Below, in pieces: positions 12,656 through 62,361 of a stretch of DNA of 64,000 nucleotides. Source of the DNA: Thozetella sp. PMI_491 (taxonomy: Eukaryota; Ascomycota; Sordariomycetes; Chaetosphaeriales; Chaetosphaeriaceae); assembly GCA_021432635.1 (NCBI GenBank), contig MU270040.1:256323-320322 (forward strand), in the 5' to 3' direction. Each line of letters begins with the position of its first letter. Position 1 is the first letter of the stretch. A program made the translations under genes and the position numbers. The notes under the pieces are model-generated. The model searched no databases, was not told where the DNA came from, and was given only the letters and a program-made list of their open reading frames with translations.

Positions 12656-13488
12656 ATGCGCTTCGTGTGTTTCCACGGAATAGGGTCCAATGCGAAGGTG
12701 AGTATGTTCTGCGGGGCGAATTAGGAAGACATTGTATCAGTCCTCACTGACAAAAGGCAGGTCCTCGAGCAGCAGACAGGTACTTAGCCGCTTCCCTATT
12801 CTACGCAAGCTAGAACGCACTTCCTGACGGGATGCCCAGAGAGACTGCGCCAAGCTCTTGGCCGCCAACACGACTTCTCTTTCATGAATGGGACTGTCTT
12901 AACAGAGCCCCCAAAAGGTGACTCTCTTCTCGGCCCTCGAATGCCCTGCCGCAGTAGCAGAGTCCAAGCTAAGGATGTGGCTCATCGATAGGATTCGAGT
13001 CCGATGCCCCATCCTATCGATTTGTCGGAGAAGACAAGGCACAGCTACAAGCGGCTCGAAATGGCGTCTTGCGGTACATCGCTACCCACGGACCCTTTGA
13101 CGGTGTGCTGGGGTTCTCTGAAGGTGGCGCGGTGGCTGCATGGCTTCTGCTCCATGACGCACAAACCCCTTCGCCACAGTTCGCGTGCGGCATATTCTTT
13201 TGTGCAGCCGCACCTATGGATGAGGATTCATGGCTTGCGGGGAAGATGAGCAACGTGACCGAGGCTGCCGGCAATGTCTTGATCAATGTCCCCACAGCGC
13301 ATATCTGGTCCCAAGCAGGCGACATTTTTCCAGGAATGGGCCAGAGACTGGTCTCCATGTGCAATGTAGAGCTACGAGAAGATTTTATTCACCATCTTGG
13401 CCACGAAATCCCCGGATCACGGTCCGAAGAATGCATGCCTGGAGCTCTTCGTGCGATTGAGCGGACCATTGAGAGAGCAAGTCAATGA
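12656..13488 (+). CDS. FSH-type serine hydrolase
   Basis: Alpha/beta hydrolase of the fungal FSH1/LovG-like family. The N-terminus MRFVCFHGIGSNAK is the family's first strand and oxyanion loop. After an intron beginning at about 12698 come VLEQQT and a short segment ending GTVLTEPPK. The last, long exon (from about 13000) carries GPFDGVLGFSEGGA with the catalytic Ser. It continues with HIWSQAGDIFPG, where the Asp lies, and HHLGHEIPG with the catalytic His. I infer about four exons. Small middle exons are uncertain, but the start and end are clear. Members in biosynthetic clusters release or trim polyketide chains from a PKS. The gene runs tail-to-tail with the MFS exporter, 103 bases apart. 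Confidence 0.8.
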
Positions 13489-24056: not shown

Positions 24057-27000
24057 ATGGAGGACGACATTGCAATTGTAGGAGTGTCGTTCAAGCTGCC
24101 TCAGGGGGCTGAGAACGAGTCGAACCTCTGGGACATGCTCGAACATCGAAGGAATGCCATGACAGAGTGGCCAAAGTCGCGGATAAGCCTTGACTCCTTT
24201 TACGATGCAGATCCATCCAGCCACAACAGAGTCAGTACTGAAAATTTTGCCCTACTGCGTCTTTTGATAGGATACAGGACAAGCCCTTGCTAAGCCCATT
24301 CTTGTGCTTTAGCTGCACGGACGAGGAGCTCACTTCCTCGAGAGTGACCCTGCCGCCTTTGATGCGCCATTTTTCTCGATCACAGCGAAAGAGGCGGCGG
24401 CAATGGATCCGCAGCATCGCATGGCTCTTGAGGCATCCTACCGAGCATTTGAAAATGGCAAGTTGTCACTCAGTTGCCTCACTTGATCGACAACTGACAT
24501 GGCATTGAGATTAAAGCTGGTATGCCAGCTGAGAGCCTTCGGGGTTCGCAAACCGGCGTGTTTGCTGCTTCTATGTCAGACGACTACTCTAGAATGAACG
24601 CGAAAGATATCGAAGGCGTTACAAATCTAAGTATTGCCGGTACGGCGTTATCTCTTCTCCCCAACAGAATCAGCTGGTACTTCGATCTGCAAGGACCCAG
24701 TCTCCACATCGACACAGCTTGCTCTGGCAGCCTAGTAGCTCTTCACATGGCATGCCAGTCTCTACGCACTGGCGATGCCACAATGGCTCTCGTGGCTGGC
24801 GCAAATCTGATGCTTGGACCCGAGGGCTCATTAATGCTCTCCAACGGGAATTACTTGTCTCCCGATAGCGTGTGCTATAGCTTCGATCACCGTGCCAACG
24901 GATATGCCCGGGGAGAAGGTATTGTTGCTATCATCATAAAGCCTGTGCGTGATGCAGTCCGGGACGGTGATATGATACGTGCAGTTATTCGCGCGACGGC
25001 ATCTAATCAAGACGGACGAACTCCCATTCTCACACAGCCAAGTGCTGATGCTCAAGAAAAGCTCATACGGAGAGCGTATCAGAAGGCTGGTCTGGACTTT
25101 GGGCCGACTCGCTTTTTTGAGGCACACGGCACTGGAACCGCAGTCGGCGATCCGGCGGAGATGAAGGCCATAGGTAGAGTTTTCAGGCGCTACCGATCAG
25201 AAAAGGAACCTCTTTACGTGTAAGCCCACCTCCCCTCTTTAACACTCTGTCAGAGTTTAGGGGCTAAGATCCGACAGTGGCTCATTAAAGTCAAACATCG
25301 GGCACCTAGAAGGAAGCGCAGGCCTGGCAAGTGTTGTAAAAGCCATTTTGATACTCGAAAGGGGTCGTATCCCGCCCAATGCGCTATTTGAAAGGATGAA
25401 TCCGAATATTGATGCCGACTTCTATCACATTGAGGTCCCCACAAAATCTATACCATGGCCAGCAGAAGGGCTACGCAGGATTTCTATTAACTCCTTCGGT
25501 TTCGGTGGAACCAATGCACATGCCATCATTGATGATGCTTTCAACTACCTTCATGGCCACAATATCAAAGGAAACCATTGCACATCTCCCTCTCCAGTCG
25601 CTCCATCAATGGCCAATGTTCACGGCAATGGAGTGTGTGATGATAGCCTGAAGGCTGCCGAACTAGCACACACGACAAACGAACATCGCCCCTTATGCGA
25701 CTCAAAACAATTTCAACAAACGAACGGAACAGGATCTTGCGCAAACGGAAACGGAACTCTAGATCTAGGTCGAAAGGCATACACAGAATCCGGCAATGGT
25801 GTATGCAATGGGGACGCAGATGGCATGCCAAAGCCTGAGCCATCTCCTCGCCTGCTTGTCTGGACAGCAGCTGACGAGTCAACCCTCAAGAGTACTATTG
25901 AAGCCTACCAGACATATTGGCAGGATCATGTCTTCAAGACCGGTGATGTCAAGCTTGATCAACTAGCCTATACTTTGGCTGCCCGGCGGAGTACACTGCT
26001 CTGGCGGACATTCTCCGTCGTGGGCCAAGATTCAGAGTTACGATCTGCAAGATTTACGCGGGCATCGGCAGATACAACTCTGCTTTTTGTCTTCACTGGG
26101 CAAGGAGCTCAATACGAAAAGATGGGCCTTGAGTTGATCAAGTATCCTATTTTCGAGGCGACGCTGCGGAAGATTGATGCGATCTTTAGGAGTTTGGGTT
26201 GCGCTTGGACTATATTTGGTGAGTATCTGCAAATTCTTGCTCACCTAGAAGATAAATTCAGAAATGTAAACCACGGATCACTTACGAGGCGACAGATGAA
26301 CTTGGTCAAAGTAGCAATATTGATCTTCCGGAGTACAGCCAGCCTCTATGCACAGCCCTACAAATTGCGCTGGTCGAGCTACTGAAGAGTTTTAACGTCA
26401 TTCCTAGTGCTGTCATCGGCCATTCATCAGGAGAGATAGCCGCCGCGTATACGAGTGGCGCGCTATCTCTGCCTTCAGCCTGCAAGGTCGCATACTTCCG
26501 CGGGCTAGTTACAGGGAAGCTGAAAAGGGCATCCGTGAGCTCTCCGGACGCGATGCTCTCGGCAAACCTTTCAAAGCATGCGATAGCAGACTACCTATCT
26601 CGAATAGATCCTAAACTAACCAGGCAAGTCTGCGTTGCTTGTATCAACAGCCCAATCAACTGTACTCTTTCTGGGCCTGAAACGGCCATCGACATAGTCA
26701 AACAGCAGCTTGATAAAGACGAAATCTTTGCACACAAGCTCAAGACTGGAGTCGCATATCACTCGCCGACAATGATGGCTGTGGCAGCTGAATATGCCGA
26801 GTTAATGGGTTCGCTCGAGGCTGGTGATAGCACGGAGTACTTAGGTATTCCCATGGTGTCATCGGTCTCGGCCAAGCCTATCCTTTCGACTGCGTTATTG
26901 TCGACGGCGCAGTATTGGGTGGATAATTTAGTTTCGTCTGTCAGATTCTCTGAAGCATTAATCGCTTTGACGCAAGGTCCCTTAAACATAACCTACGCGC

Positions 27001-30000
27001 CAATTTCGCACATTGTGGAAGTTGGCCCTCACCCTGCACTTCGTCGCCCAATCCAGGATACGCTGAATCAAGGCAAGAGCAGGAAGAGACAGATGCGCTA
27101 CACCAATGTTCTGCATAGGTCTAGGCCGGCGCATCAAGCCACACTAGAGTTTCTGGGCCAGCTTTTCTGCGATGGGTACCCTGTCTCGCTTACAGCTGCG
27201 AACCGACAAAGCAGCGTCAGCAACCAAACTGCTTTTTTGGTAGACAGCCCAGAGTATCCTTTCAACCACAGCCGCACGTACTGGAGCGAGGCTAGGCTTA
27301 GTCGGGACTTCAGATTGCGCCGTAGTGCTCCTGGAGATTCGCTGGGCGCGAGATGCCATGACTGGAACCCTTTGGCGCCGAAGTGGAGGAGGTTCATCAG
27401 TGCAGAGTCCACTCCCTGGACCAAAGACCATGTCGTAAGCCTCTAATTTGCTGTCCGCATTGCATATACAAACAGATCCTAACCATGCGCGAACAGGTCA
27501 TGGGTACTGTGCTATACCCTGGGGCCGGCATGATAGTCATGGCAATTGAGGCAGTACAACAAATATGTGCCGAGGACCGCACAGTGGCTGGTTACACAAT
27601 TAAAGAAGCACGCTTTCTCAGCCCTATCATCATCGGGAAGAAGTCTGAAGAGAGTACTGAGACCATTGTCGAGTTGAGGCGTATTCAAAATCCTTACGAG
27701 AAGGAATCGAGATGGTCTGAGGTCAAAATCATGACGCAGATCAAAGATCGTTGGACCGAATGCTTTCGAGCTACCATTCAGACACAGTACGAAGATGATG
27801 GTGCCACAACCCAGGTTGACGCCGGTCGAGAGAGGCAGTGCTGGAACACGGCTGTTATCGACCACCTGAAGCATGCTACTGATTCCTGCACAAAGCGGGT
27901 CGACTCTCAGGCATTCTACAGGTACTGCCACAATTCTGGACTACAGTACGGCGAGACTTTTCGGCTCGTGAGAAACATTAGTTGGGACGGCGCCCGCTTG
28001 GCAGTAGCCCAAATCGATCTGGTCCCATCGGAACATCAAACATCCAGTCTCGTGCATCCAGCTGTGCTTGACAACACCCTGCAGGTCATACTCGCCCAGG
28101 TCTCCAACGGTCTTTCGGAACAGTGTTCCGCATACGTGCCATATCGCCTTTCTAATACTTGGATATCGGCATCTGGATGGAAACCACATCAACAATCTTG
28201 CTTGCATATTGCTGCAGAGCGCGTCGCAAACCCGAACGTACAAGAAATTACTGCCACCGTCCATGTTTTAGGCAACGATGGTACACCTTTATGTGTGTTC
28301 GAGAGTGTTACAATGTCGCAGGTTGCAGGAAAGCAAGAAGACGACAGTATTGGGAGGTCGAAGCTTCTCTATGGAATCGAATGGAAACCGCAGCTCAGCC
28401 TAATGAGTCGTGAGCAGTTGCGCCACGCATGCAATGAGGATGCTTTTACTCAAGACGAAACAGCGATGGCAACATTCCGTACGGCTCTGGAGCCTGTTTT
28501 GCTCAAAATACTGAACAAAGTCAGCAAGGAGCTTACCGACGCAGACCTACATCGCCTTAAGCCGTCTATGCAGAGCTACGTACGATGGATGAGACACCAC
28601 TTAGAAAACTTCTCGACCCCTAAAAAAGAAGAAGAAAGTACGGATGAGGACCTTCAGAGACTTCTGGAGGAAGTTAAAGTCTTGTACCCGCCGTGGGAAA
28701 TATTCCCTGCCATCGCTCAGAGTTTAAAGCCTGTGTTGCTCGGCGAGATCGACCCTCTGCCGATCGCCTTTGATGAAAGAGGTTTGGCCGAGAAGTTTTA
28801 TGCCGATATTTTTTCCACGGCATGCCGCAACAGTTTCCGCGAATTTATCGACCTGCTTTCTCACGAAAACCCAACTATGCGAGTGCTGGAGGTCGGTGCT
28901 GGAACGGGCGGAATGACGCGACATATTTTATCCAGCTTGGCCGACTGCGAGGCGCGTGATGGCGGCACAAAGTTCTCCGACTACACGTACACCGATCTCT
29001 CTCCATCTTTCTTCGAGGCGGCCCAACTTCGTTTCCAAGAGTTCAATGATCGCTTGCAGTTCAAGATTTTCGACCTGAATCAGAAACCAGTTGATCAAGG
29101 CTTCGAAGAGGGGACGTATGATCTAATCATTGCCGGCTGCGTGTTACATGCTACAGGAGACCTGAAATCGGTGCTGCAACACCTGAGGTCTTTGCTCAAG
29201 CCTAACGGACGGCTTCTCTACCTTGAGGTAGTGACGCCTGAAAACATCACAACCAATTTTGCTTTCGGCGTACTTCCTGGGTGGTGGTCATCGGTCGAGG
29301 ACTACCGAGCACTATCCCCCACCATTACCGAGCAACAGTGGGATGAAGTTTTGCGCGAAAACGGATTTTCCGGCAACGATCTCATCATCCGGGACTACAA
29401 AGAGGAGGCTTGCCACACTTTCAGTCTCATGGTTTCCACTCGCAACGCTCTGTCCACCGTAGCGGCTACAATGATGAAGCGTCTAAAAGTGGTCGTACGT
29501 GGACCATCAGATACGAAGGCGATTGATCTAGCCAATACTCTCCGCCTTACAATGCAGCAGTACGAATCCGATATCGTATTCCTAGACCAAGTCAGCGACA
29601 CTATTTTCACTGACCGAGACGTGGTAGTCTCATTACTTGAGATTGACGCCCCTTTCTTGGCCACCATGCGCGACACAGACTACGGAGTTCTGAAATTATT
29701 GATCCAGAGAACTTCCCATTTGATATGGATTGCAGTAATATCCCTTGAAGATCCCAGATGTCCGGAATATAGTGTGATGCAGGGGTTCCTTCGAGCGATT
29801 CGCTCTGAGAACGTCGATAAACATATCGTCACGCTTGGTATCGAGATTTCCTCTCAGCAGCATGAAGTCACTAGCTACTGCGCAGATTACGTGGCCAAGA
29901 CGTTCACGGCCTCGTTCGAATCGGGGTCCGACGAGCTGGAGTACCTCGTTTCTAACGGGCAGCTTCTCACTGCGCGGCTTGCGCAAGACGAAGCGCTGAA

Positions 30001-32230
30001 CACGAAATTGCGCTCCTTGGTCAAGCCACAGCCACGGAGTGAACCGTGGATGTCAGGACCGCCGGTGAAACTGACGGTGGGTACGCCTGGATTTCTTGAC
30101 CAGCTAGAGTTCATCGAAGATGAGTCTCATTCAGATGATCTTCACCCACACGACATCGAGATCGAGTCTAAAGCATGGGGCCTCAACTTTCGCGACGTGC
30201 TTGTGGCACTGGGCCGAGTCGCTGGCGATGACCTTGGCTACGACTGTGCCGGTGTCGTAACACGGGTTGGATCCGCCTGCGATACAACACTCCAGCCTGG
30301 GGACCGGGTCTGCGGGGGTTCTGTTGGCTGCATGCGGACGTTCCCATGTGGTCGAGCTACCAGCTTCGTCAAGATTCCAGAGACACTTTCATTCGAAGCC
30401 GCGGCATCACTTGTTAGCCCAGCTATCACAGCATGCTACTCACTCATTGAAGTTGCTCGTTTAAGCAAAGGAGAAAAGATCTTGATCCACGCAGCTGCAG
30501 GAGCTACTGGCCAGATGGCTGTACAAGTCGCTTTAATGTTGGGGGCCGAAGTCTTTGCTACTGTCGGATTCGATGAGAAGAAGCAATACCTTGTCGACAA
30601 ATATAACATCCAGCCAGACCATATATTCTATAGCCGCGACACCACCTTTGCCCGCGGCATTATGAGAGTAACGGACGGCTATGGTGTTGATGTAGTCTTG
30701 AACTCACTCTCCGGAGATGGGCTTCAAGCCTCATGGGAGTGTGTGGCTCCACATGGCCGATTCATCGAAATTGGCAAGGCTGATATCACGGCCAACTCAA
30801 CATTGCCAATGGCATGCTTCGCTCGAAATGTTACATTCTCTGCAGTAGACCTGCACCATATATCACTGGAAAGACCGGCATTAGCTTACAGACAACTCGA
30901 GAGGGTGATGGGTCTTCTAAGGGAGGGTATGATTCAAAACCCTTCACCATTGAATATTTACAACCTGGAGAATATTGAACAGGCCTTCCGGTATCTCCAG
31001 AGTGGAAAGAGCATGGGCCGTATCATTATTGGCGTCGAAAAGTCAGATTTGACCCCCAAGAGACTCCTGGAGCGGAGCGACTGGAAGTTGGACGCCCATG
31101 CCTCCTATGTGGTTGTGGGCGCTTCAGGGGGGCTGGGGCGAGCCATCAGCAAGTGGATGGTTGAAAAAGAGGCGAGATATCTCATCTTGCTATCGCGATC
31201 AGGCGAAACATCTACAGCTCTAGCAGAAGTCACAAAGGATCTACGGGCGCAAGGCGTTGTCATTGCGGCGCCCGAGTGTGACGTTTCCCTAAAGGCCTCG
31301 TTGTCTACTGCACTTGAAGAGTGCTCGAAAACCATGCCTCCGATCAAGGGCTGTATTCAGTCAGCTATGGCACTTCATGACATCATCTTTGACAACATGA
31401 CATACGCCCAGTGGAGGGAAACGACAGGATCAAAGGTGCAAGCCTCGTGGAATCTCCACGCGCTTTTACCCGACGGTCTCGACTTTTTTGTGCTTCTATC
31501 GTCGCTCGCGGGTATCTATGGAAGTATCACCCAAGCCAATTATTCAGCTGGATGCAGCTTCCAAGACGCCTTAGCACGATACCGAACATCACGCGGCCAA
31601 AAGGCTATCTCGCTAGATCTCGGCTGGATGCGCAACATCGGCATTGTCGCTGAGACGGCTTCGTATCAGCAAGTGCGACAAGCCGCCAACGATATGGCTG
31701 CCATCGAGGACACAGAATTGGTGGCTCTGCTCGAGCTCTACTGCGACCCTGATCGCCCCATCCTGCCTAGTGCGCAGAGTCAGCTGCTCGTCGGCGCCGT
31801 CACTCCGGCCGATTGCCTCTCGCGAGGTCTGGCGCCGCCAACATTAGCGTTGCGGCCCATGTTCTCCGGCTTTTCAATGATTGTCGGAAAGAATGGATCC
31901 GATCGCGTTGATGGTGGTGATGGAGGGCCCAGTTTTGCCTCATTATTCCGGCAGGCAACCGAGGCCGCAGAGCGTGGCGAGGTAGTGGTTCAGGGACTTG
32001 CCACGAAGCTAGCTAGGGCCATGTCCATCGCGGTCGATGATGTAGAGCCGAGCAAGCAGCTATCTGACTACGGCGTGGACTCACTGATGGCCGTCGAGCT
32101 ACGCAACTGGATAGCCAAGGACTTCGGAGTCAACTTGGCTGTCTTTGAGATTATGGGTGCGAGAACTATTGCGGCGATTGGAACTTTAGTGGCGGAGAAG
32201 AGTGAGGGGGAAAAAGAGTGTGATAGCTGA
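24057..32230 (+). CDS. Highly reducing polyketide synthase (KS-AT-DH-MT-ER-KR-ACP)
   Basis: Iterative type I PKS of roughly 2,600 residues in about seven exons. [14 protein letters not shown] (Cys, near 24715), [12 protein letters not shown] (His, near 25120) and [12 protein letters not shown] (Lys/His, near 25290, restored across an intron). AT: FTGQGAQ and [11 protein letters not shown] (Ser, near 26420). [12 protein letters not shown] (HxxxGxxxxP) is restored if the 27435-27496 intron uses its second acceptor, and [10 protein letters not shown] supplies the Asp. [14 protein letters not shown] near 28886, with GVLPGWW downstream. [14 protein letters not shown] and [21 protein letters not shown] near 31120, then SSLAGIYGS...QANYSAG with Tyr. 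[17 protein letters not shown] near 32070, the phosphopantetheine Ser. All catalytic residues I checked are present, so it should build a methylated, variably reduced chain from malonyl units. There is no releasing domain, consistent with the separate thioesterase and FSH hydrolase. Confidence 0.97.
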
Positions 32231-33068: not shown

Positions 33069-36000
33069 ATGGATGATCTTTCGGGGCCGCCCGAGCCACT
33101 ATTACCTGGGCACATCAGTCCGACCGGACTGACCGTCTTGACCAGACCTGATAGCGCCGAAGTAGAGTGAGTAGCGTCTGTGACAATCGGACGGACTGTG
33201 TCTCTCATTGGAGCGTATTTCTGAGACTTGGTAGTATCGTCTTTGTCCATGGCTTCACCGGCCATCCCGAGAGAACGTGGACATACACTGGCGCGGCTGG
33301 AGCAGAAGCCATATCTAACCAAGGCTCCACCCTGGACCGTCATTTTAGGCTCAACAAACTCCTCAAGACGGAAGCAAGCTCAAATGGCAGGGCGCATATA
33401 AAGAAGGGAACCTATTGGCCTCTTGCCCTCGTACCAAGCACTATCCCGAGTGCCCGTGTTCTCACCTATGGCTACGACACGAATGTACGTCATGTCGCTG
33501 CTGGCCCTGTTAGCCAAAATACACTCTATGATCATGCGGCCGACTTTCTTGCCGCATTGGAAGCGGAACGTCGCGCAGCTCCCCACCGCCCCCTCTTGTT
33601 TGTTGCCCACAGCCTAGGCGGCCTAGTCGTGAAGGAGACGCTGCGGCGCTCACGGGGCTACCACAAGCAGCCGTCGCTTCGAAAGATTTTTGAAGCGACT
33701 GTTGGGGTCATATTCTTTGGCACTCCCCATGCCGGGGCAGATCCCTGTGGTGTCGTCCATGACGTAGTTATATCGCTTGCCAAGGCCATCGGCTTCAAAG
33801 TCAACGATAAGATTGTGGAGGCCCTTTCCCCATCAGCCGAATATTTAAACCAGCTTAGAGATGAGTTTGTTAGCATGATCGACGAAAGAGGATGGTTGGT
33901 CCATTCCTTTCAGGAGCAATACGCATTGTCTGGATTCTTCGGCAAGAAGGTTCGTTCCAGAGGCCCTCACGTTGACTTTCGCACGTGTATTCTGACTATG
34001 TTTCCTTCAGGTTGTCGAGGACGCATCCTCATGCATTCGGCATCCGGCAGCCGAGATAGTGCAGCACATTGGCAGGAATCATCGAGACATGTGCCGATTT
34101 TCCGGATCTCAAGATGCAGAATACCAGAAAGTAGCGGCAGCCCTCAAACGCATTGCTGAACATCGCACGGTCAACAGAGTTCTAGACAGCCCGAGGGTAG
34201 GGCAGAAGCGACCGAGGTCTGACTTAAACGACGATGACGACTTGGTCCAGGTTCCCAACCACAAACCACGAATCTCTTCCCGTTCTGGCAGGACGAAAAC
34301 CAAGTTAAGTGACGAAGAACTTGCTGCTATAACAAGGGATCAAGCAGTAGAGGCCAGCCGTCAGAACCTTTTGTCTTCTCTTACGTTTAGGCAAATCGAC
34401 AGTCGCTTCACGATGATCGAGCGAGCCCATTCCAAGACTTGCCGATGGCTGCTCAATGAGTCTGCTTACTGCGACTGGCTCGATGCTCAGTCTTTAGATC
34501 ACCATGGCTTCCTCTGGATCAAAGGAAAACCCGGGGTGGGCAAATCAACAATCATGAAGTTCGCCCTCAATCAGGCCAAGAGCAACAGGAGCCAAGGAAC
34601 TATTATCCTCCATTTCTTCTTCAACGCAAGAGGCGCAGAACTGGAGAAGTCTACACCGGGCCTCTATCGGTCACTCCTATTCCAGCTCTTTCAATCTGCC
34701 CCGGACATGTGGCAGTCACTAGATGTGCTGGCCGACACGAATCTTGAGGAACTCGAGACCTGGCACATCCAGCAGCTTAAAGAACTTTTCCGCTCCGCTG
34801 TAGAGCGCCTGGGGAAACGGCAAGTGTTCTGCTTTGTGGATGCCCTCGATGAATGTGAAGAGGATCAGGTCCGAGACATGATCTCCTACTTCCAATCACT
34901 TGCCGACTTTGCGATTTCTGAAGGATTGCATCTTCGCATCTGCTTCTCCAGCCGCCACTATCCCCACATCACCATTGACCACGGTCTGACGCTTGTTCTC
35001 GAACAACAAGAGGGACACGACCAAGACATTAGAAATTATATTGCGTCAGAGCTCCGAATCGGCAATGGGGAATACGTCTCCGAAGTTAGGCAACAACTAG
35101 AAGAGAAGTCGGCTGGCATCTTTATGTGGGTAATCCTTGTCGTAAGGATATTGAATAAGGAGTACGATCGAGGAAACATTTACTCCCTCCGGAAAAGGCT
35201 CGAACAGATCCCACCAGGCTTGTATGAGCTCTTCACAGACATTTTGACAAGAGATAACGAACACCTTGAAAGTCTCTGGCTCTGCATCCAGTGGGTACTA
35301 CTCGCTAAGCGACCCATGAGCCGAGAGGAACTCTACTTTGCCATGCTCGCCTGCTCTGGTGATTCCAATCTAATAAGCTGGGATCCCAAGGAAATATCGA
35401 TTGCTGACATGGGGCGCTTTATCTTGAGCTGCTCTAAGGGTCTGACAGAAGTTACCAAGAAGACACACACCGTCCAGTTTATCCACGAATCTGTCAGAGA
35501 TTTTATCCTCAAAGAGAATGGTCTCAGCAAGATCTGGCCCCATTTCCAACAAAATTTCATCGGCAGCGGTCATGACATACTGAAGCGAGGCTGTGAAGCT
35601 CAGATCCTCGCGGCCTCGGGTATCCAGCCTAGGCGTTTTCCATTTCTCAAATACGCCGTACGCAATGTTTTTCACCATTCTGACACCGCTCATGCCTCTG
35701 GGATTGACCAATCCGGCCTTTTTACGTCTTTTCAACTGCCAATATGGATAGCTTTAAGTAACGCCCTCGAGCAGTACCCAGTCCGACACTATCCTCCTGA
35801 CGCGCATCTTTTGTACGTGCTCTCTGAGTACAACGCATTTCATCTTATCCAGGATCATCCCGAGGTCTCAACTCACTTCGAGATCAAGGGCGGGAGATGC
35901 AGACGGCCCCTGTTTGTTGCCATGGCTCACGGTCATGCGGAGACTGCTCGAATTCTCTTCGCCTCCTCTTTAGGTTCAGAGCATTGTCAGTGCGGAACCA

Positions 36001-36821
36001 ACATGCCATTCAATGATATCAACATAAGTGCTTATGGGAGAGATTTCGGCTCCGAGTCTGATTCCGCTGCCTTACTTGCAACGATAGACCGGGACGACAA
36101 GGTCACTTCACATGGGTTACTCCGCCTCCTCTCAAGCAATTTCAAGGATATGCCCGCTGCCGAGCAGGACGCTATTCTGCAAAGTGCTGTCCGGTCTGAG
36201 AATATGGATTTCTTTATGTTGACCTTAGAACACACGTTCGGTGCCATTAGTCCTCATCAAGCGAGAATCGCCGTGGTCGAGTATGCGGCTAGAACCGGCA
36301 TCAAGGAATGTTTCGAAATGATGACAGGTTTTATCGCCCCAAAAGAAGCAGCTGAGCCTCGCTCCAGCCCAGTCTCGGATCACATAAGCAGGGGTATGGC
36401 TGGTTTTACGCGTTTCTTAGGCACTGGGCTTACTCCTATGTACCTTGACGTCCATTGTTCCGATAACCGAACGCCACTCTCCTTCGCAGCAGAAAAGGGC
36501 CATTCCGAGATTTGCAATATATTGGTAAGGTCCCGGAAAGTCTATCCGCACTCGAAAAGTAACCATGGCAGGACTCCCATTGCGTATGCCACCGACAACG
36601 GACATGCTGGCATTGTCCAGATGCTACGCAACACTAGAAAGAGATATTTCGTTGCACCATCGCGAAATATAAACCCTCCTGGCGCCCTAGAAGCTGTCTT
36701 TAGAGGCAATATAATAAACTGCGATTCACATGGGCTTCCCAAGAAGAGGGGCGATGAGGGCCTCGTACAGCAAAGAGAGGACACCGGGATCTCTGATCAA
36801 GGACAAGAGGAATGGACATAA
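33069..36821 (+). CDS. Alpha/beta-hydrolase-NACHT-ankyrin receptor (fungal NLR-like)
   Basis: Predicted 1,207 residues from three exons (33069-33166, 33235-33949, 34011-36821), all joins in phase. The first restores LTVLTRPDSAEVDIVFVHGF across an intron. Residues about 30-270 are a serine-hydrolase domain with VAHSLGGLVV (Ser159) and FFGTPHAG. Next come the family's E-D-A-S-S-C-I-R-H-P and N-H-R-D-M-C-R-F blocks, a charged linker and a NACHT NTPase. The NACHT has Walker A GKPGVGKST (about 443-451), Walker B FVDALDE and the sensor region CFSSRHYP. The C-terminus has a long alpha-solenoid region and only two clear ankyrin repeats (NRTPLSFAAEKGHSEICNIL and a following unit). Fungal STAND proteins of this layout act in non-self recognition and regulated cell death, with repeats sensing and the N-terminal domain executing. 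The ligand is unknown. A second member lies at 57769-62361. Confidence 0.92.
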
Positions 36822-41190: not shown

Positions 41191-42017
41191 CTAGGAAGCA
41201 TAACCGCCCCGTAGACGAGCTGTAACATGGATAGTACTCTCCTGGCTTAGGTTAATACGCGAACCATCCATGCCGAGAACTCGAGGTTCTAACTCACTTT
41301 GCCTACTCCATAGTCGCGAAGGGACCGCTCTGTAGAATAAAGGTCAGCGGTTCCTGCAGCGGGAGAGTTCCGCCAATGAAGATGGTACTACTCACGGTCA
41401 TTTTGCTGGTTTGACGGCCAGATCTGCTTGCCGCCCCAAAGAAACCGAAGCCACTCGACGTCTGTCACTTTCTCTTCGCTGTATCGCGAGATGACATCCT
41501 TGACAGTACTGTCTAGCGGCACCTGGTTAAGTGTCTGCGTCTTGCCATCCAGATCGCGGAAGAAAAGACTAGATAGAATGACCGGTGCTTGCTCGGGCTC
41601 GTCGGGGCCAGGGTAGGGAGGTGGCAGCGGCTGGTTTGCGGATCGAACGAAATAGATTGTGTCACCCTACGGCGAGGTTAACATTTGGAGTGTCAGGTGA
41701 GCATCGGCGGTGGTTTACGTTGACAATGTTGTACGATGTTAGAGTCCTGTCCACTGAAGAAAGTTAGGTACTTTCTACTCGGACCAGAGGCAGCAGACCT
41801 TACGATCGTCGAGCATTGTATTGGCGTAGATGCTTCGAAGCTGCTCCCAAGACTCAGACTGGCCAAGATGCGCCGCGATAGCCTTGTTCAACTCCCTCAC
41901 AGTCTTGGAGACGTTGAAGTCCTGAAGAATGTTGGACTCGCAATCATTCGCTGTCAGCTCCTCGAAAAAGAGAAACTCTGTCGCGAAGGCTTCCTCAGCC
42001 TTGGTCAAAGCTGCCAT
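41191..42017 (-). CDS. Tandem two-domain ubiquitin-like modifier ending RLRGG-YAS
   Basis: Predicted 200 residues from five exons (41804-42017, 41719-41753, 41396-41666, 41298-41329, 41191-41241). Every join is in phase with GT-AG ends. Domain 1 (about 8-90) ends DRTLTSYNIVNGDTIYFV, matching ubiquitin's GRTLSDYNIQKESTLHLV. A Pro-rich linker (PLPPPYPGPDEPEQ) follows. Domain 2 (about 113-197) has FFRDLDGKTQTL, then VEWLRFLWGGKQ, then RSLRDYGVGKESTIHVTARLRGG. These align segment by segment with ubiquitin's FVKTLTGKTITL, RLIFAGKQ and the strand leading to LRLRGG. Gly197 is followed by only Tyr-Ala-Ser, so a ubiquitin-type protease could expose the diglycine for conjugation, as in ISG15-like and precursor ubiquitins. 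Helix and Lys positions are otherwise very divergent from ubiquitin. The gene is divergent from an RBR ligase 487 bases away. The short exons make automated annotation likely to miss it. Confidence 0.8.
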
Positions 42018-42504
42018 ATTGACGCGAGTGATAATAGTTTTAGAAGAGGTCTTGGATATACTACGTGTGCGCAAGCAGCCCCAGACGGCCTCGGAGCTCG
42101 GTTGATTTAAGAGGAATAGATAAGGGCCGCCTTAGAGTTCGGCTTGTTTCTATCGGGAGGAGGAGGAGGCCCCCCGCGGTTGTGTTTCTGCCTCGGGCTC
42201 TTGCACCGCCAGGAATCTGCACTCCGCAGCTATCGAGCCTATCACCGCTAGAGTGTGTCGGGGTAGTACCAGGCGGATTCTCGGTGTTTAGCTGATGGTG
42301 TGGCAGGTCCAAAGTGCCATTCTGTCTGCCTTTGAAGCGGAGCAAAACACAGCCTTCTGTCCACTACGTAGTGTCTCTTAGCACGGGGACCAGGCTCCCC
42401 CAGCCTGGAGAACAAAAGATAAGACTACAGCTAGCAGAAACATAGTTCTCTCGAATAATTCAGTGGCCAAAGTGTTGCCAGTCTGGAGTTCAGAATCTGT
42501 TACG
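42018..42504. promoter_or_regulatory. Shared divergent promoter of the ubiquitin-like/RBR pair
   Basis: The 487 bases between the two start codons must hold both promoters. A perfect 12-base palindrome, CACTACGTAGTG, lies at 42362-42373, 131 bases before the RBR start and about 345 before the ubiquitin-like start. No TATA box is evident on either strand. The arrangement suggests joint control. Confidence 0.55.
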
Positions 42505-43963
42505 ATGGACGACGACGAGCAAGGGGAGATTGAGGATTGGAAGGCATGCTACGAGATCAGCTTGATTTTCCAGGCGCGTCCATCGCCTTGGCAAAAGTGC
42601 ATCAATTGTTCCAAAGTCAACAGGTACGCCGGCGACGTCTTTCGCTCGACATTTTGGACCGCCACGAGATGCCATGCCGGCCACAGCCAGGCCCGTCCAG
42701 AGGAAACCAGGGGCGGAACCAACACACCTCAACTAGGGGTCTGCGGAAGCTGCGACAAGGACTATGTCTTTAACGTGGTCAAGGGGAAGCTCACTTGTCG
42801 TCGCGACAACTGCCGGCGCGTGGTAAGAGTCAACAAAGCCGCGGTGCGGAGCGTGCTCTCAGCACCCGCGGACCAAGATCTTCTTCTGTAAGATCCAATC
42901 ACCTCAGACCAAAGGCAACCTATTCGGCTTGGCTGACCACGATCTGTCGATTCAATAGCAAATTTCTGGCATGTGTGGATAAGTACAACGTGTATGAATG
43001 CGCGATTCACTGCGACCGGAGCACGTTTGATGAAGGGACCGCACCGCCGACGAGCGAGTGCGACCACGATCGGCAGGTCTGCAACGATTGTCTGAAGTCC
43101 CTGTTTGAATCTTCTATCCGAGGCGGCCGGCTGAAGGAGCTTGCGTGCCCCGACGTTCAGTGCAGGAAGCAGGTTACTGTCCAGCTGGTCCGCCAGCTGA
43201 TCTCGCCTGCGTGTGCCAAGATGTACAACCCCGGCTTGCAGAAGCAAGAAACCCGGCGACAGATCAGTACAGCTAATTGCTCGGCCTAGATACTTCAAGA
43301 AGCTAGCCTTCGAGGCCATGGCCGACGACCCGAACTTCCGATGGTGTGTCTGCGGGCACGGACAGATCCACCCGGCTGGAGGTAGGAACAGCACTAAGAT
43401 GTTCAGGATGACCGGGAAGGCTGACAACACATACAACAGAGGCCGCCCCCGAGTGGAACTGCCTCGCCTGCAAGCAAAGGCATTGTTTCGTCTGCAAAGA
43501 TGACGACGAGGGCGACGCCCCGTGCGAACACCTGGCAGGCCTCGACCGGGCGCGTAGACAGCAAAAGGACGAGCTGAAGAAGCAGGCCCTGCAGGCGCTG
43601 GAGCGCCATCAGCGCGACGGCCGTGAGCAAACCAATACTCGAGCAACGAAGGAGGAGATCGCGCGGTCGACCAAGCGGTGCCCCCGGGCTGGGTGCCAGA
43701 TCCCTATCTTCCGAGACGACGGGTGCGCCCACATGACGTGCAAAAAATGCGACGCTGATTTCTGCTGGTCCTGCAAGGTCATCTGGAAGCGGACGGGGAA
43801 GAACCTCACGGTGCTGCATCTCGACACTTGCCGGATCGGGACGAAACGAAGGACGGCGCTGCGCTCGCTGGACAAGCGAGGCTATGGAAAGGACTGGAAT
43901 GTCGACCGGGGCTACGATACGTCACTGGACAGCGACCTGTGGCTCATTAGCTCGCAGCAGTGA
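42505..43963 (+). CDS. RBR-type (RING-IBR-RING) E3 ubiquitin ligase
   Basis: Predicted 420 residues from four exons (42505-42887, 42959-43222, 43290-43381, 43440-43963), all in phase. Residues about 30-125 form an extra Cys/His-rich module (QKCINCSKVNRY, RCHAGH, GVCGSCDKDY, KLTCRRDNCRR). RING1 spans about 135-200 (YECAIHC ... CDHDRQVCNDC ... CPDVQC). The IBR reads FRWCVCGHGQIH ... WNCLACKQRHCFVCK ... CEHL. A basic, Gln/Arg-rich helix (RARRQQKDELKKQALQALER) leads to RING2/Rcat: CPRAGCQIPIFRDDGCAHMTCKKCDADFCWSCKV. The Cys in G-C-A-H-M is the position of the catalytic Cys in parkin-type ligases. It would receive ubiquitin, or the neighbouring modifier, from an E2 and pass it to a substrate. Head-to-head pairing with the ubiquitin-like gene points to that as its likely client. 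The second intron (67 bases) was placed by conserved phase. Confidence 0.9.
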
Positions 43964-57768: not shown

Positions 57769-60700
57769 CTAGGGGCTGTCGTGTCTTTTGATTCGTGCTT
57801 TCTCCTCCATTGCATCCTCCAGTAACTCCCGCACATCCTCCATGCTGGCGAGATCCAATGGGCGCAGCCCGTTCGAGTCCCTGGCCGTGGGATCCGCGCC
57901 GTTACGCAAAAAGACCCGTACCAGCTCTTTGACGCCGCGCCATGCGGCGAGGTGCAGCACTGTGTTGCCCGCATTGTCGGCGGCGCACAGGTCGGCGCCA
58001 CGTTGCAGCAGGAGCTTGGCGTTGGCGATCGTTACGGCCGGATCAAACTCGCTGCTCGTCACTAGCGAATGGTAGGTCCAGAAGACGTGGTGCAGCGGCG
58101 TCATGTCCGCGCCGTCCCGGGCGTTGACATCAAGCGCTGTTCCACGGCCCAACAGATACCCAAGCGTCTCGGTAGAGTCGGGGCTACTTGAGGTGGCAGA
58201 GAGGTGAAGCACGGTCCGGCCGCTGTCGTCCCGGGAGGTTATGTCGGCACCTTTTTCAAGAAGCCATTCTACTACGGGTAGTGCGCCACGGCCGGCGGCT
58301 ATGTGGAGCGCCGTCAAACCTTCTCTGTCCGCGAGGTGCAGATCTGATTCTTGGTAAAGTAGCTTCTCAAGTAGGCTGACATGATCCTTTACTTGGCGGT
58401 TGAGTATGGCGAGGTGGAATGGCCGGTGGCCAAGCATGTTGAGGGCGCTCCTATCGGCACCATACCGGAGGAGGGTTTCGATGAAGTCTTCGGTTGTCAT
58501 TCGCGCCGCAGCGTGGAGTGGCGTATTGCCTCGCAGGTCCGGCTCATCTACTGGCAAATTACGCTGAAGTAGATGTGAGAGAACTGCTGGTGTCTCGTTC
58601 CATAGCGAAAGATGCAGGCATGTCGCCTCTGTATCGCCGAAGGTGATGTGCGGATCAGCGTGGTTGCGGAGTAGCGTCTGCACCGAGGCCACACTTCCCG
58701 CCATGCAAGCGACATGCATGAAAGATACACCAAAAGACCCAGCACCGGAGAAGTCGGTCCCGAGCTCGACAAGACGCTGGAGGACGTCGGGGTGGCAGCC
58801 AGTAAGATGCCAAAATAGTCGAATGGAGAAGGCTTCGAAGTCGAACTGGAAGAGGTCGATGCCGCCGAAGATCACCTGGGACATCTCTCGTACTTTCCGG
58901 ATCGCGCCTTCTGCTAGCGGAGTGCGTTCGTCCTTGGTCCTCGCCTTATCAAGCGCGATATCTTTGTTGCGATACCATAGCCCAGCAATGGCGCTCAGGC
59001 GGATCTCTGCGTGTGCAAAGGTCATCGGGTCTGCCTCCAGCAACATCTGGACGATCTCGAGGCTGCCGCTCTCGGCAGCAGACAAGAGCGCAAGATTAAT
59101 GTGCATTCCATCGTAAGCAAATGTAGTATCTGCCGGATCTGCACCATGTTCGAGGAGCATCTTCACAATCTCAACGCTCCCATGCTTGCACGCCAGCACC
59201 AGCGCTGGTAGAGATTCGTAAGGTATTTCCGTGGACTCGAGGACCGCTTGGGCGTGCGAGTATGTCGCCGGTAATCTAACCTCGGCGCCGTGCTTGAGGA
59301 GGACCTGGAGAGTCTCTTGGTGTTTCTTCCATACGGCGACCTGTAGGTAGGACCGGCCGCCTTCTAGCAGGATGTTCACCTCGGCAGCGTTTCGCGATAG
59401 ACTAAGGTTTACATAAGAGGCAATGTTGTACTCAACAGCGAGGTACAACACATTGCAGCCCAAAGAGTACTTTTCACCTTGGTGGATGGCATTGTACAAC
59501 GAGATGTAGTTGTTGAAGGATTCGGAGTCCGGGGAGCCAAATTGCTGATCGATGAGCTCTGCGTGCGACGTCCCCTGCTTCTCGGCCTCCTGGCAGTGAA
59601 GAAAGCAGAATTCGGTCGTGTAAGTAAGGAGTGGGAAACCGCTCTTATGAGAGAGCTGCGAGGGTTTGTCAAGCGTGAGACCGGACCGGATGTGCGATGC
59701 CATCTCCTGTACCTCCTTGAACGACAGATACTGGATGCAGCACTTGGCTAAGGTGGAATGCCCTTCCATAGTGAGCGCGTCTACCTTTTCCACAGATGAG
59801 CCTTGCCGGCTTGACAAGAGGTAGTCTTTGACAGACTGGTGGATAAATTGAACGACGTAAGTGTGGTCTGAGTTCGACAGGTCCTCGTCAAGCCATGCGT
59901 CTTTGACAACCTTGACTTCGAGAAGGCCTCCGCAGCGACTGTGTATGCGCCTCCTCATCGCGGAATCGTCTTGTACTATCTTGTCGGATTCGGTGAGGGC
60001 TTTGTGCGATGACGCGGGCGGGCTTGTGATCAACGCCATCACATATCGGAACTCGCGGAGACTTAGCGGACGCTGTGCGCTGAGGACAATCGCGAGCATC
60101 GTATCGGTTTCTTTGGAGTATCTTGGGTTGATGCTGGCTAATAGCAGCGCAAACAGGCCGCCAAGCTCCTCCGGGATGTCGTCGATAGCCTCCCTCAGCT
60201 CGGCCACGGTGGCACCGTCGCTCAGAGCGGCTTGAATTCTCTCGAGGGCCAGGTGAGCCCAAAGGAAGATACCATCGGCTTTCTGGATTAACTCGGTCTT
60301 GAGCTGCTTCATCTCGTCGCTGGCCCCTGCCAGCAGAGCGAGAGCTGTCATACGGTCATTTATATAGGCGGCAATGTCCGGTCCGTTCCTCTCCTCCATC
60401 CTAAAGCCACTAGGCACAGAAGGGCCGGTGATGCTAGGAAGGTCTCGGCAGGAAATGCAGATACGGACGCCGTCCTTTTCCAAGGAGGCATCCGCCTTGG
60501 TGGCTGCGTTGAGGAAGGTGACAAGCTCCGCTATTCCCTCTTTGCCACCATCGCACTCGTCCAAGGCATCGATGATGAAGCAGATCCGGCCCTGCTGCGA
60601 CGCATGGCCGACGACCGCTCGTAAAGCCCTCTTGAGATTGTTCAGCTGCCAAGTCACGACATCTAGCTCCTCCGCGTCGTAAATTTGAGCCTGGGTGAAG

Positions 60701-62361
60701 CCTGAGTCCATAGCTGTAGATAACCAATCGTCTAGCATCGCGTCGAAAGACGATGGACATTGTCGCAGTACTTGGCCAAGCGCTAGACGGAGGAAGCCAT
60801 CAAATGAGTGTTCTCGCGGGGTGCCTCTTGTGTTGAAGGCGTGCTTGACGAGGACTCCAAACCGCTGCCGGTACCTTCTTAATAATTGAGTCGCCACCTC
60901 GTTCATCAGCAATGATTTGCCGCTCCCGGGTTTGCCGGTTATCGCGAAGAGACCTTTCCCGCTCTCTAACCAGCGCGTTAACTCGCCGTCAGGCGCCCAC
61001 ACCCAAGACAGTGTCTTGTGGTGGGCCTCTTTGGACTGGGTGGCATTGGACGATACGCTTAAATCCCCCAGGCTTCGTACACAGGCTTGTCAAGACAGTC
61101 AGTTTGGCACCTCAAACGAATATTGTGATTTACTCACCACGTAGCATGCGCTCGGCGTATCCTAGAGGCCAGATTTGTTAGCGAAGTGAACTAGCGTCGC
61201 TCTTTTATGACTAGTTTTGGAGAAGAGGGATAGATCCCGAGGGGAGAAAGAAACGAACCATCCTTAGAACTTGTCGCCGCTTCCTCGAGTATCTTTGACA
61301 CTTTCCGCCGCATAGTTTGGCAGAGGGTATGATATGCATCATCGTTGACACTGTCAAATCGGACAAGGTGCTCATGATCTCTCGCTACTGGGATATTCTC
61401 GGAGTATTCCGAGTCGAGCACAGCTGAGTCTTTCTCGACGACCTATGCATGGTAAGCATCGGATAACTCTGACTCGGGTAGGGCAAGATGGGATAAACCT
61501 ACCAGCTCGTTCAGCGGATACCGTGGGACCTGCTCGTAGAAGTTTACGATAGATATCTGCCCCTTGACCCTCATGAAGTCGGAATTTACAATGAATGATT
61601 CGTTCGCCCTGGGCTGCAGCATGTTTTTGACGTTTTTGGGTAGCTCCTTGCTTGCAAGCTTCATAACCGAAAGTCCCATCTTAGAAAAAGACTTATCAAG
61701 CAAATGGCTACCTCGGTGGGGTGTGCCGAAGAAACATATCAGTTTCGTTGAGCGTAAAAGCTGTTCATCTGTGTTGTGGTGCGAACTGATCACAAGTGCC
61801 TAGAAACAGTCAGGAGGGAATTGGCAGCGGCAGTTGGATTGAGGCTTGGTCTTTTAGTACCTGTTTCACTACAATACCACCCAAGCTGTGGGCGAGGAAC
61901 GCGATGGGGCGTTTTTCTTGCTATCAGAAATCTGTCAGTCTTTAGCCACTTAAAGTGGTATGGACACAGAGCTGGACAACTCACAGCAGACCCGATGCGA
62001 TTGTTCTTGAGATGGAGAAGTAGGCTCTCCGCATGTTGATACACTCCGAGATTGTTAGACGAGCCCCCGGACACATCTGCGATGTAGCCAAACACCATAA
62101 TGCGCGCAGTAGGGAACGACCTCGCGAGGTCCGAAGGCCAGTAGAAGCCTGTGGAGGCATCGCGAAAAGTATGGTAGGGAGATCCGTTCAGCCCATGGAC
62201 GATGAGAATGCTTCGAGTGGTTAGAAAAGCTAACTACAGGACGACAACAGAGACTGCGTAACTCACTCTAGCTCGCAGGCCACGGGGTCGCTGAGAACGG
62301 TGATGCCCTCGCGACGGACGACCTCCGGCGATCCGGGGGAGCGAGGGCGATGCGCACTCAT
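57769..62361 (-). CDS. Alpha/beta-hydrolase-NACHT-ankyrin receptor (fungal NLR-like), large
   Basis: Predicted 1,400 residues from seven exons (62267-62361, 61985-62210, 61861-61920, 61503-61799, 61259-61442, 61138-61161, 57769-61085), all in phase. The hydrolase domain has LDILIVHGLNGSPYHTF, then AFLAHSLGGIVVKQ (Ser119), then CFFGTPHRGS and VVEKDSAVL. A linker ends KTLSWVWAPDGELTRWL, the usual entry to the NACHT. The NACHT has Walker A GKPGSGKS (about 346-353), Walker B FIIDALDECDGG and C-I-S-C-R-D-L-P. The C-terminal half carries about ten ankyrin repeats, such as LPALVLACKHGSVEIVKMLL, EGLTALHIAAGRGALPVVEW and GNTVLHLAAWRGVKELVRVF. Placement of exon 6 (24 bases) rests on phase and is the weakest point. 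The role is probably non-self sensing and cell death, as for its shorter relative at 33-37 kb. Confidence 0.9.

Follow-up and report, generated by a model that had tools for sequence, protein, structure and literature searches.

Head-to-head genes for a two-domain ubiquitin-like protein and an RBR ligase in the fungus Thozetella sp. PMI_491, and a second, diverged pair in the same genome

Introduction

The closest precedent for the mechanism that we propose for the locus described here is ISG15 with the RBR ligase HHARI. To our knowledge, the ISG15 gene is not itself paired with an E3 gene. HHARI (ARIH1) is among the reported ISG15 E3s, and ISG15 orthologues are reported from vertebrates only (PMC9722776). 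HERC5 and TRIM25 are further ISG15 ligases. Bil, a bacterial ubiquitin-like conjugation system with E1 and E2 enzymes, has been likened to ISG15, according to the excerpt of its description (PMC12948488). In contrast to Bil, the Thozetella locus links a modifier and an RBR E3 alone, without E1 or E2. The Bil gene layout includes a DUB and is not known to include an RBR. NEDD8 is a ubiquitin-family modifier that has a C-terminal Gly-Gly, as does the protein reported here.

Here we describe, in Thozetella (Sordariomycetes, Chaetosphaeriales), a divergent gene pair encoding a ubiquitin-like protein (UBL) and an RBR-type ligase (RBR). No such UBL-RBR pair is described among the literature matches listed, which consisted of titles and abstract openings, with subscription literature mostly outside their scope.

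Results

The pair lies on contig 26 of the 72.3-Mb, 157-contig genome of Thozetella sp. PMI_491, within the 64,000-nucleotide stretch that was analysed (the window). Its two genes are divergent, with 487 bp between their start codons. The spliced models of the UBL and the RBR are each 100% identical over their full length to an NCBI protein of Thozetella sp. PMI_491, and NCBI labels both as hypothetical proteins. The features of the pair are as follows.

41191..42017, minus strand: UBL gene GQ53DRAFT_824541, 200 aa, five exons (42017-41804, 41753-41719, 41666-41396, 41329-41298, 41241-41191); spliced model and full-length identity to the annotated protein
41640..42017, minus strand: UBL domain 1, aa 1-92 (spliced), ending without Gly-Gly; hhalign to ubiquitin
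41577..41639, minus strand: UBL linker, aa 93-113, with a PPPY motif inside
41613-41624, minus strand: PPPY motif, aa 98-101; codons checked
41191..41576, minus strand: UBL domain 2, aa 114-197 (spliced), ending in RLRGG and then the tail YAS; PF00240 at aa 118-194
42018..42504, no strand: intergenic region, putative shared promoter
42505..43963, plus strand: RBR gene GQ53DRAFT_842164, 420 aa, four exons (42505-42887, 42959-43222, 43290-43381, 43440-43963); spliced model and full-length identity to the annotated protein
42505..42887, plus strand: family-specific Cys-rich N-terminal domain of the RBR, aa 1-127; conservation in aligned members
42999..43163, plus strand: RING1, with ligands C142, H145, C162, H164, C169, C172, C191 and C196; ligand counts in 14 members
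43345..43525, plus strand: IBR, C235 to C275, split by the intron 43382-43439; Pfam and ligand counts
43679..43831, plus strand: RING2, C327 to C377; aligned to ARIH1 and parkin RING2
43724-43726 and 43730-43732, plus strand: catalytic-position Cys342 and His344, respectively, in RING2

The sequence-only reading that preceded this work had placed a head-to-head pair at exactly these positions and had described both genes as split by short introns. The spliced models agree with it on both points, with four introns of 50–66 bp in the UBL gene (50, 52, 66 and 56 bp) and three of 58–71 bp in the RBR gene (71, 67 and 58 bp). Its suggestion that annotation might have missed the pair did not hold; both models equal NCBI proteins exactly, and we reject an annotation gap here.

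The window also holds two NLR-type genes, at 33155-36818 (plus strand) and 57772-61089 (minus strand), with NPHP3_N/NACHT and ankyrin repeats by Pfam. A stretch that reads as hydrolase-like (33155-34156; no Pfam match) seems to precede the first of them. A highly reducing polyketide synthase occupies 24498-32227 (plus strand), with dehydratase, methyltransferase, KR and ACP in 27362-32227, and there is an FSH1-type hydrolase at 12973-13485 (plus strand).

Pfam matched the UBL to ubiquitin (PF00240, E = 8e-14) in two stretches. The two UBL domains were also compared separately by hhalign, as profiles from seven homologues. Domain 1 matched ubiquitin with a probability of 91% (E = 9e-7) and domain 2 with one of 99% (E = 4e-20), and the two domains matched each other at 96%; two unrelated controls, one of them UBL domain 1 against the RBR N-terminal domain, gave 0.1%. 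Judged by sequence profile only, from this comparison and Pfam, the UBL has two tandem ubiquitin-fold domains. The best 60 PDB matches to the UBL were ubiquitin, polyubiquitin, ubiquitin fusions and engineered ubiquitins.

A UBL profile search gave ten proteins, seven of them family members. Our counts use P0001, P0002, P0003, P0018, P0019, P0021 and a 194-aa model of a second Thozetella UBL, on contig 14, which replaces P0020. Left out were two polyubiquitins, P0022 (read as such, although it is present in one alignment) and P0023 (on its name, polyubiquitin-B-like), and the weak match P0024 (E = 2.5e-3). In domain 2, R42, K48, H68, R72, G75 and G76 are present in all seven members and L8, K11, L73 and R74 in six; K6, K27, K29 and K63 are each found in one of the seven, and K33 in none. 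The C-terminus reads RLRGG in six members and RVLGG in the seventh, the contig-14 UBL, and in each of the seven a tail of 1–9 residues follows the Gly-Gly. Domain 1 ends without Gly-Gly in all seven, and PPPY lies between the domains in six of them.

PPxY motifs bind the WW domains of Rsp5-type ligases. On its sequence, the PPPY linker of the UBL could thus be a candidate binding site for WW-domain ligases. Among fungal HECT genes, RSP5 is described as the most conserved (PMC5913265).

The UBL resembles ubiquitin and linear di-ubiquitin in that polyubiquitins are its best PDB matches among those listed and that its domain 2 is 38–40% identical to the Thozetella ubiquitin genes. It differs from linear di-ubiquitin in that domain 1 ends without Gly-Gly, so the UBL should not be split into monomers, and from ubiquitin in the scarcity of K27, K29, K63 and K33. 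We also considered whether it could be NEDD8 and rejected this identity: position 72 is Arg in 7/7 UBLs, not Ala, whereas a NEDD8-like gene on contig 51 of Thozetella reads LALRGG.

Pfam matched the RBR to IBR (PF01485, E = 4.7e-14) in two stretches; only IBR-type families, and no Ubl domain, were found in it. Counts for the RBR are based on 14 sequences, namely the 14 proteins of the RBR search minus the partial P0016, plus the contig-14 RBR. The profile of these sequences matches ARIH1, parkin and RNF31 across RING1 to RING2. The RBR has the features of an RBR E3: RING1-IBR-RING2 with zinc ligands, and in RING2 a catalytic Cys with Cys-x-His. C342 and H344 are kept in 14/14 aligned members, and the second ligand position of RING1 is His in 12/14 and Cys in 2/14. 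In the RBR mechanism as described, a His two positions away from the catalytic Cys plays a part (PMC11354881).

The RBR shares with Ariadne/parkin-type RBRs (ARIH1, ARIH2, parkin, RNF31, CUL9) the RING1-IBR-RING2 order, the catalytic-position Cys and Cys-x-His. Its family is set apart from them by a C-terminal signature, GYD.SLD..LWL, and by a Cys-rich domain of its own at the N-terminus. In the N-terminal domain, C32, C35, C56, H60, C80, C83, C98 and C103 are each kept in 13/14 members, the remaining member being gapped. Its first ~125 residues gave no match to Pfam or to solved structures, and we regard it as a candidate UBL- or substrate-binding domain. The profile E-values and the full-length homologues rule out a chance reading of the UBL and RBR domains. 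What the sequence-only reading had said of these domains also stands. Its two beta-grasp domains and C-terminal RLRGG are recovered by Pfam and profiles, RLRGG being followed by YAS, and its full RING-IBR-RING ligase with a catalytic Cys agrees with the Pfam IBR matches, the profile matches and the presence of C342 throughout.

Searches of the Thozetella genome uncovered another such pair. On contig 14, a minus-strand RBR and a plus-strand UBL lie head to head, with 643 bp between them. This diverged pair was not part of the sequence-only reading. A shortened family RBR was also found. These features are as follows.

L034 4571-5363 (contig 14), plus strand: contig-14 UBL gene, 194-aa model with both domains and one GC-AG intron
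L035 5768-6584 (contig 47): lone family RBR fragment, IBR-side and RING2 exons only

Compared with the window pair, the contig-14 UBL is 29% and the contig-14 RBR 39% identical, and all seven intron positions and phases agree (UBL 1,0,1,0; RBR 2,2,1). Frames are open throughout in both pairs, and introns are GT-AG except for the one GC-AG intron. The NCBI model of the contig-14 UBL has 158 aa and lacks part of domain 1. When 29 kb around the contig-14 pair were compared with the 64-kb window (tblastn, E 1e-3, open frames of at least 50 aa), similarity was confined to the pair. We therefore reject a large segmental duplication carrying the pair. The flanking Pfam matches of the two pairs also differ, among those compared. 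The two intergenic regions share a single inverted 9-mer, so that no promoter motif common to both pairs was found. The contig-47 fragment is 57% identical to the contig-14 RBR over the last exon, and the UBL-profile scan found no UBL beside it.

With three UBL-family queries, genome searches detected members of the UBL family on no contigs but 26 and 14, an exon on contig 29 aside, so that both family UBL loci found (2/2) are paired with a family RBR. The other matches to these queries were ubiquitin genes (contigs 8 and 3), the contig-29 exon, which is of the ubiquitin family, and a Dsk2-like match on contig 4. We rejected the matches on contigs 4, 31 and 51 as UBL-family members, because their sequences read as Dsk2-like, RAD23-like and NEDD8-like, respectively. 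Distinct from all these is a gene on contig 7 (L045 3600-4469) that has two or more ubiquitin-like repeats, of which one ends in RQRGGG; no RBR on contig 7 was among the IBR-search matches listed.

The IBR family gave at least 20 matches at at least 15 loci in the genome. A UBL-profile scan of all 13 other RBR loci detected a UBL at none (0/13), with ~1.5 kb covered on each side at contigs 34, 16, 2 and 39, flanks that are too shallow to exclude an upstream UBL there. Exon-wise searches for conjugation enzymes gave at least 10 E1-type (PF00899), at least 32 E2-type (PF00179) and at least 19 USP-type (PF00443) matches in the genome, all lower bounds, and none on contig 26 or 14; USP was the sole DUB family searched. 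With no E1, E2 or USP match near either pair, neither is a complete cassette, and these steps would be borrowed.

The search for the RBR gave 14 proteins including the window RBR, 13 of them from 12 named species. The UBL came from three named species, all of them among these 12 (Thozetella, Sporothrix eucalyptigena and Cadophora sp. MPI-SDFR-AT-0126; 3/12), and the other 9/12 gave none. Both protein searches were confined to annotated proteins sharing 5-residue words, so these misses are weak evidence; even so, they count against universal pairing. The sequence-only reading had held that finding the two genes independently in most genomes would refute it, and our result (RBR in 12 named species, UBL in three, by the 5-residue-word search) addresses that condition in part.

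In Sporothrix eucalyptigena, the UBL (tag _009167) and the RBR (tag _009168) are both on contigs sized 104,975, and in Cadophora sp. MPI-SDFR-AT-0126 both are on contigs sized 1,609,245. The Sporothrix tags are consecutive. From the equal contig sizes, and not from gene orientation, we infer that UBL and RBR share a contig in both species. A family RBR thus occurs on a contig of identical size in 2/2 other named species having the UBL. The UBLs P0002, P0003 and P0018 come from contigs of 933–1,688 bases and are therefore uninformative on neighbours. Sporothrix and Thozetella belong to Sordariomycetes, Cadophora to Leotiomycetes and Amniculicola to Dothideomycetes.

In the RBR tree, in which 4/13 inner branches reach the support star, the Pleosporales, Helotiales and Sporothrix proteins form three groups, with supports of 90/99, 90/91 and 99/100. 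The contig-14 copy groups with a Clohesyomyces protein (support 82/84), not with the window copy; long branches meet here, and the tree gives no placement of the contig-14 RBR.

Discussion

On these sequence features, we consider it reasonably probable that the two genes of the locus form a conjugation module, in which an ISG15-like modifier has an RBR E3 dedicated to it and E1, E2 and processing enzymes are borrowed. The UBL would be a two-domain modifier made as a precursor, and a housekeeping protease would trim its 1–9-residue tail, exposing Gly-Gly. Charging may then fall to the ubiquitin E1 (Uba1), since Arg42 and Arg72 of ubiquitin, which have a role in E1 choice, are both retained in domain 2; Arg72 and Gly75-Gly76, the marks of a Uba1-charged ubiquitin-type modifier, are found in 7/7 UBLs. 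From a shared E2 the UBL would move to Cys342 of the adjacent RBR, and this ligase would then attach it to targets. Recognition would be the task of the linker and of domain 1, which lacks a terminal Gly-Gly. We infer how the UBL is processed and charged, what its targets are, that it pairs with this E3 and that the two are co-expressed.

That two pairs in one genome keep seven introns at 29% and 39% identity, with different flanks, argues for such a module, as do R42, K48, H68, R72, G75 and G76 in 7/7 UBLs and C342 and H344 in 14/14 RBRs. Against it stand the RVLGG end of the contig-14 UBL, the lack of an E1, E2 or USP match near either pair, the finding of the UBL in just 3/12 named species with the RBR in a limited search, and the lone RBR fragment on contig 47 with no UBL found beside it. 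The sequence-only reading had proposed a self-contained module of modifier and dedicated E3. The linkage is strengthened by the contig-14 pair, Sporothrix eucalyptigena and Cadophora, so that a partnership once drawn from position now has the support of another pair and of linkage in two further species; the absence of PF00899, PF00179 and PF00443 matches from contigs 26 and 14 gives no support to "self-contained".

The UBL might instead act on the RBR non-covalently, activating or inhibiting in trans a ligase whose real cargo is ubiquitin, although we think this unlikely. Gating by ubiquitin-like partners is common among RBR ligases, and parkin's own Ubl domain and NEDD8-cullin regulate RBRs non-covalently. 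The lack of a Pfam Ubl domain in the window RBR and the linkage of the genes at several loci would suit such a partner, and the PPPY linker, in 6/7 members, could be its docking site. However, a regulator need not keep Gly-Gly and a short tail, and 7/7 members do, with R72. It is also quite improbable, in our view, that the genes are mere neighbours sharing a promoter, the UBL being served by the general machinery and the RBR being an ordinary ubiquitin ligase. Fungal genomes often have divergent genes lying close together, no UBL came from 9/12 named species that have the RBR, and Thozetella has one lone shortened family RBR. Those misses are weak, coming from annotated proteins with shared 5-residue words, whereas each of the two UBL loci found in Thozetella has its RBR partner, the flanks being different, and both other named species with the UBL (2/2) have the two genes on equal-sized contigs.

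If the two genes were a selfish or decaying element with no part in conjugation, this would account for the patchy finds, for two copies at unrelated places and for the shortened RBR relative on contig 47. NLR-type and polyketide synthase genes lie nearby in the window, and the contig-14 RBR groups with the Clohesyomyces protein instead of the window copy (82/84, on long branches). We nevertheless judge this reading very improbable, given that both pairs keep full open frames and the catalytic and Gly-Gly residues at 29–39% identity, and that the RBRs of Pleosporales, Helotiales and Sporothrix fall into three groups, if in a tree with 4/13 inner branches starred.

The two-gene conjugation module thus remains the reading that we favour, and the pair seems to function in the manner of an ISG15-type modifier that has its own RBR. 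The UBL, like ISG15 (PMC9722776), has two tandem ubiquitin-like domains and a C-terminal RLRGG (LRLRGG in ISG15) followed by a short tail, which is trimmed off in ISG15 and predicted to be so in the UBL. We liken the two by features and not by alignment, and do not file the UBL as ISG15. More tentatively, and with low confidence, we suggest that these genes may be a lineage-specific fungal counterpart of ISG15, found in Leotiomycetes and Sordariomycetes and, as regards the RBR, in Dothideomycetes too, in which modifier and RBR persist and duplicate as a divergent unit, borrow Uba1 and shared E2s, recruit Rsp5-type ligases through PPPY and serve in stress or non-self defence. A fungal two-domain modifier linked to one RBR would offer a tractable two-gene system for studying how an E3 chooses a UBL over ubiquitin, and the UBL-RBR pair would also help to ask how new modifiers arise.
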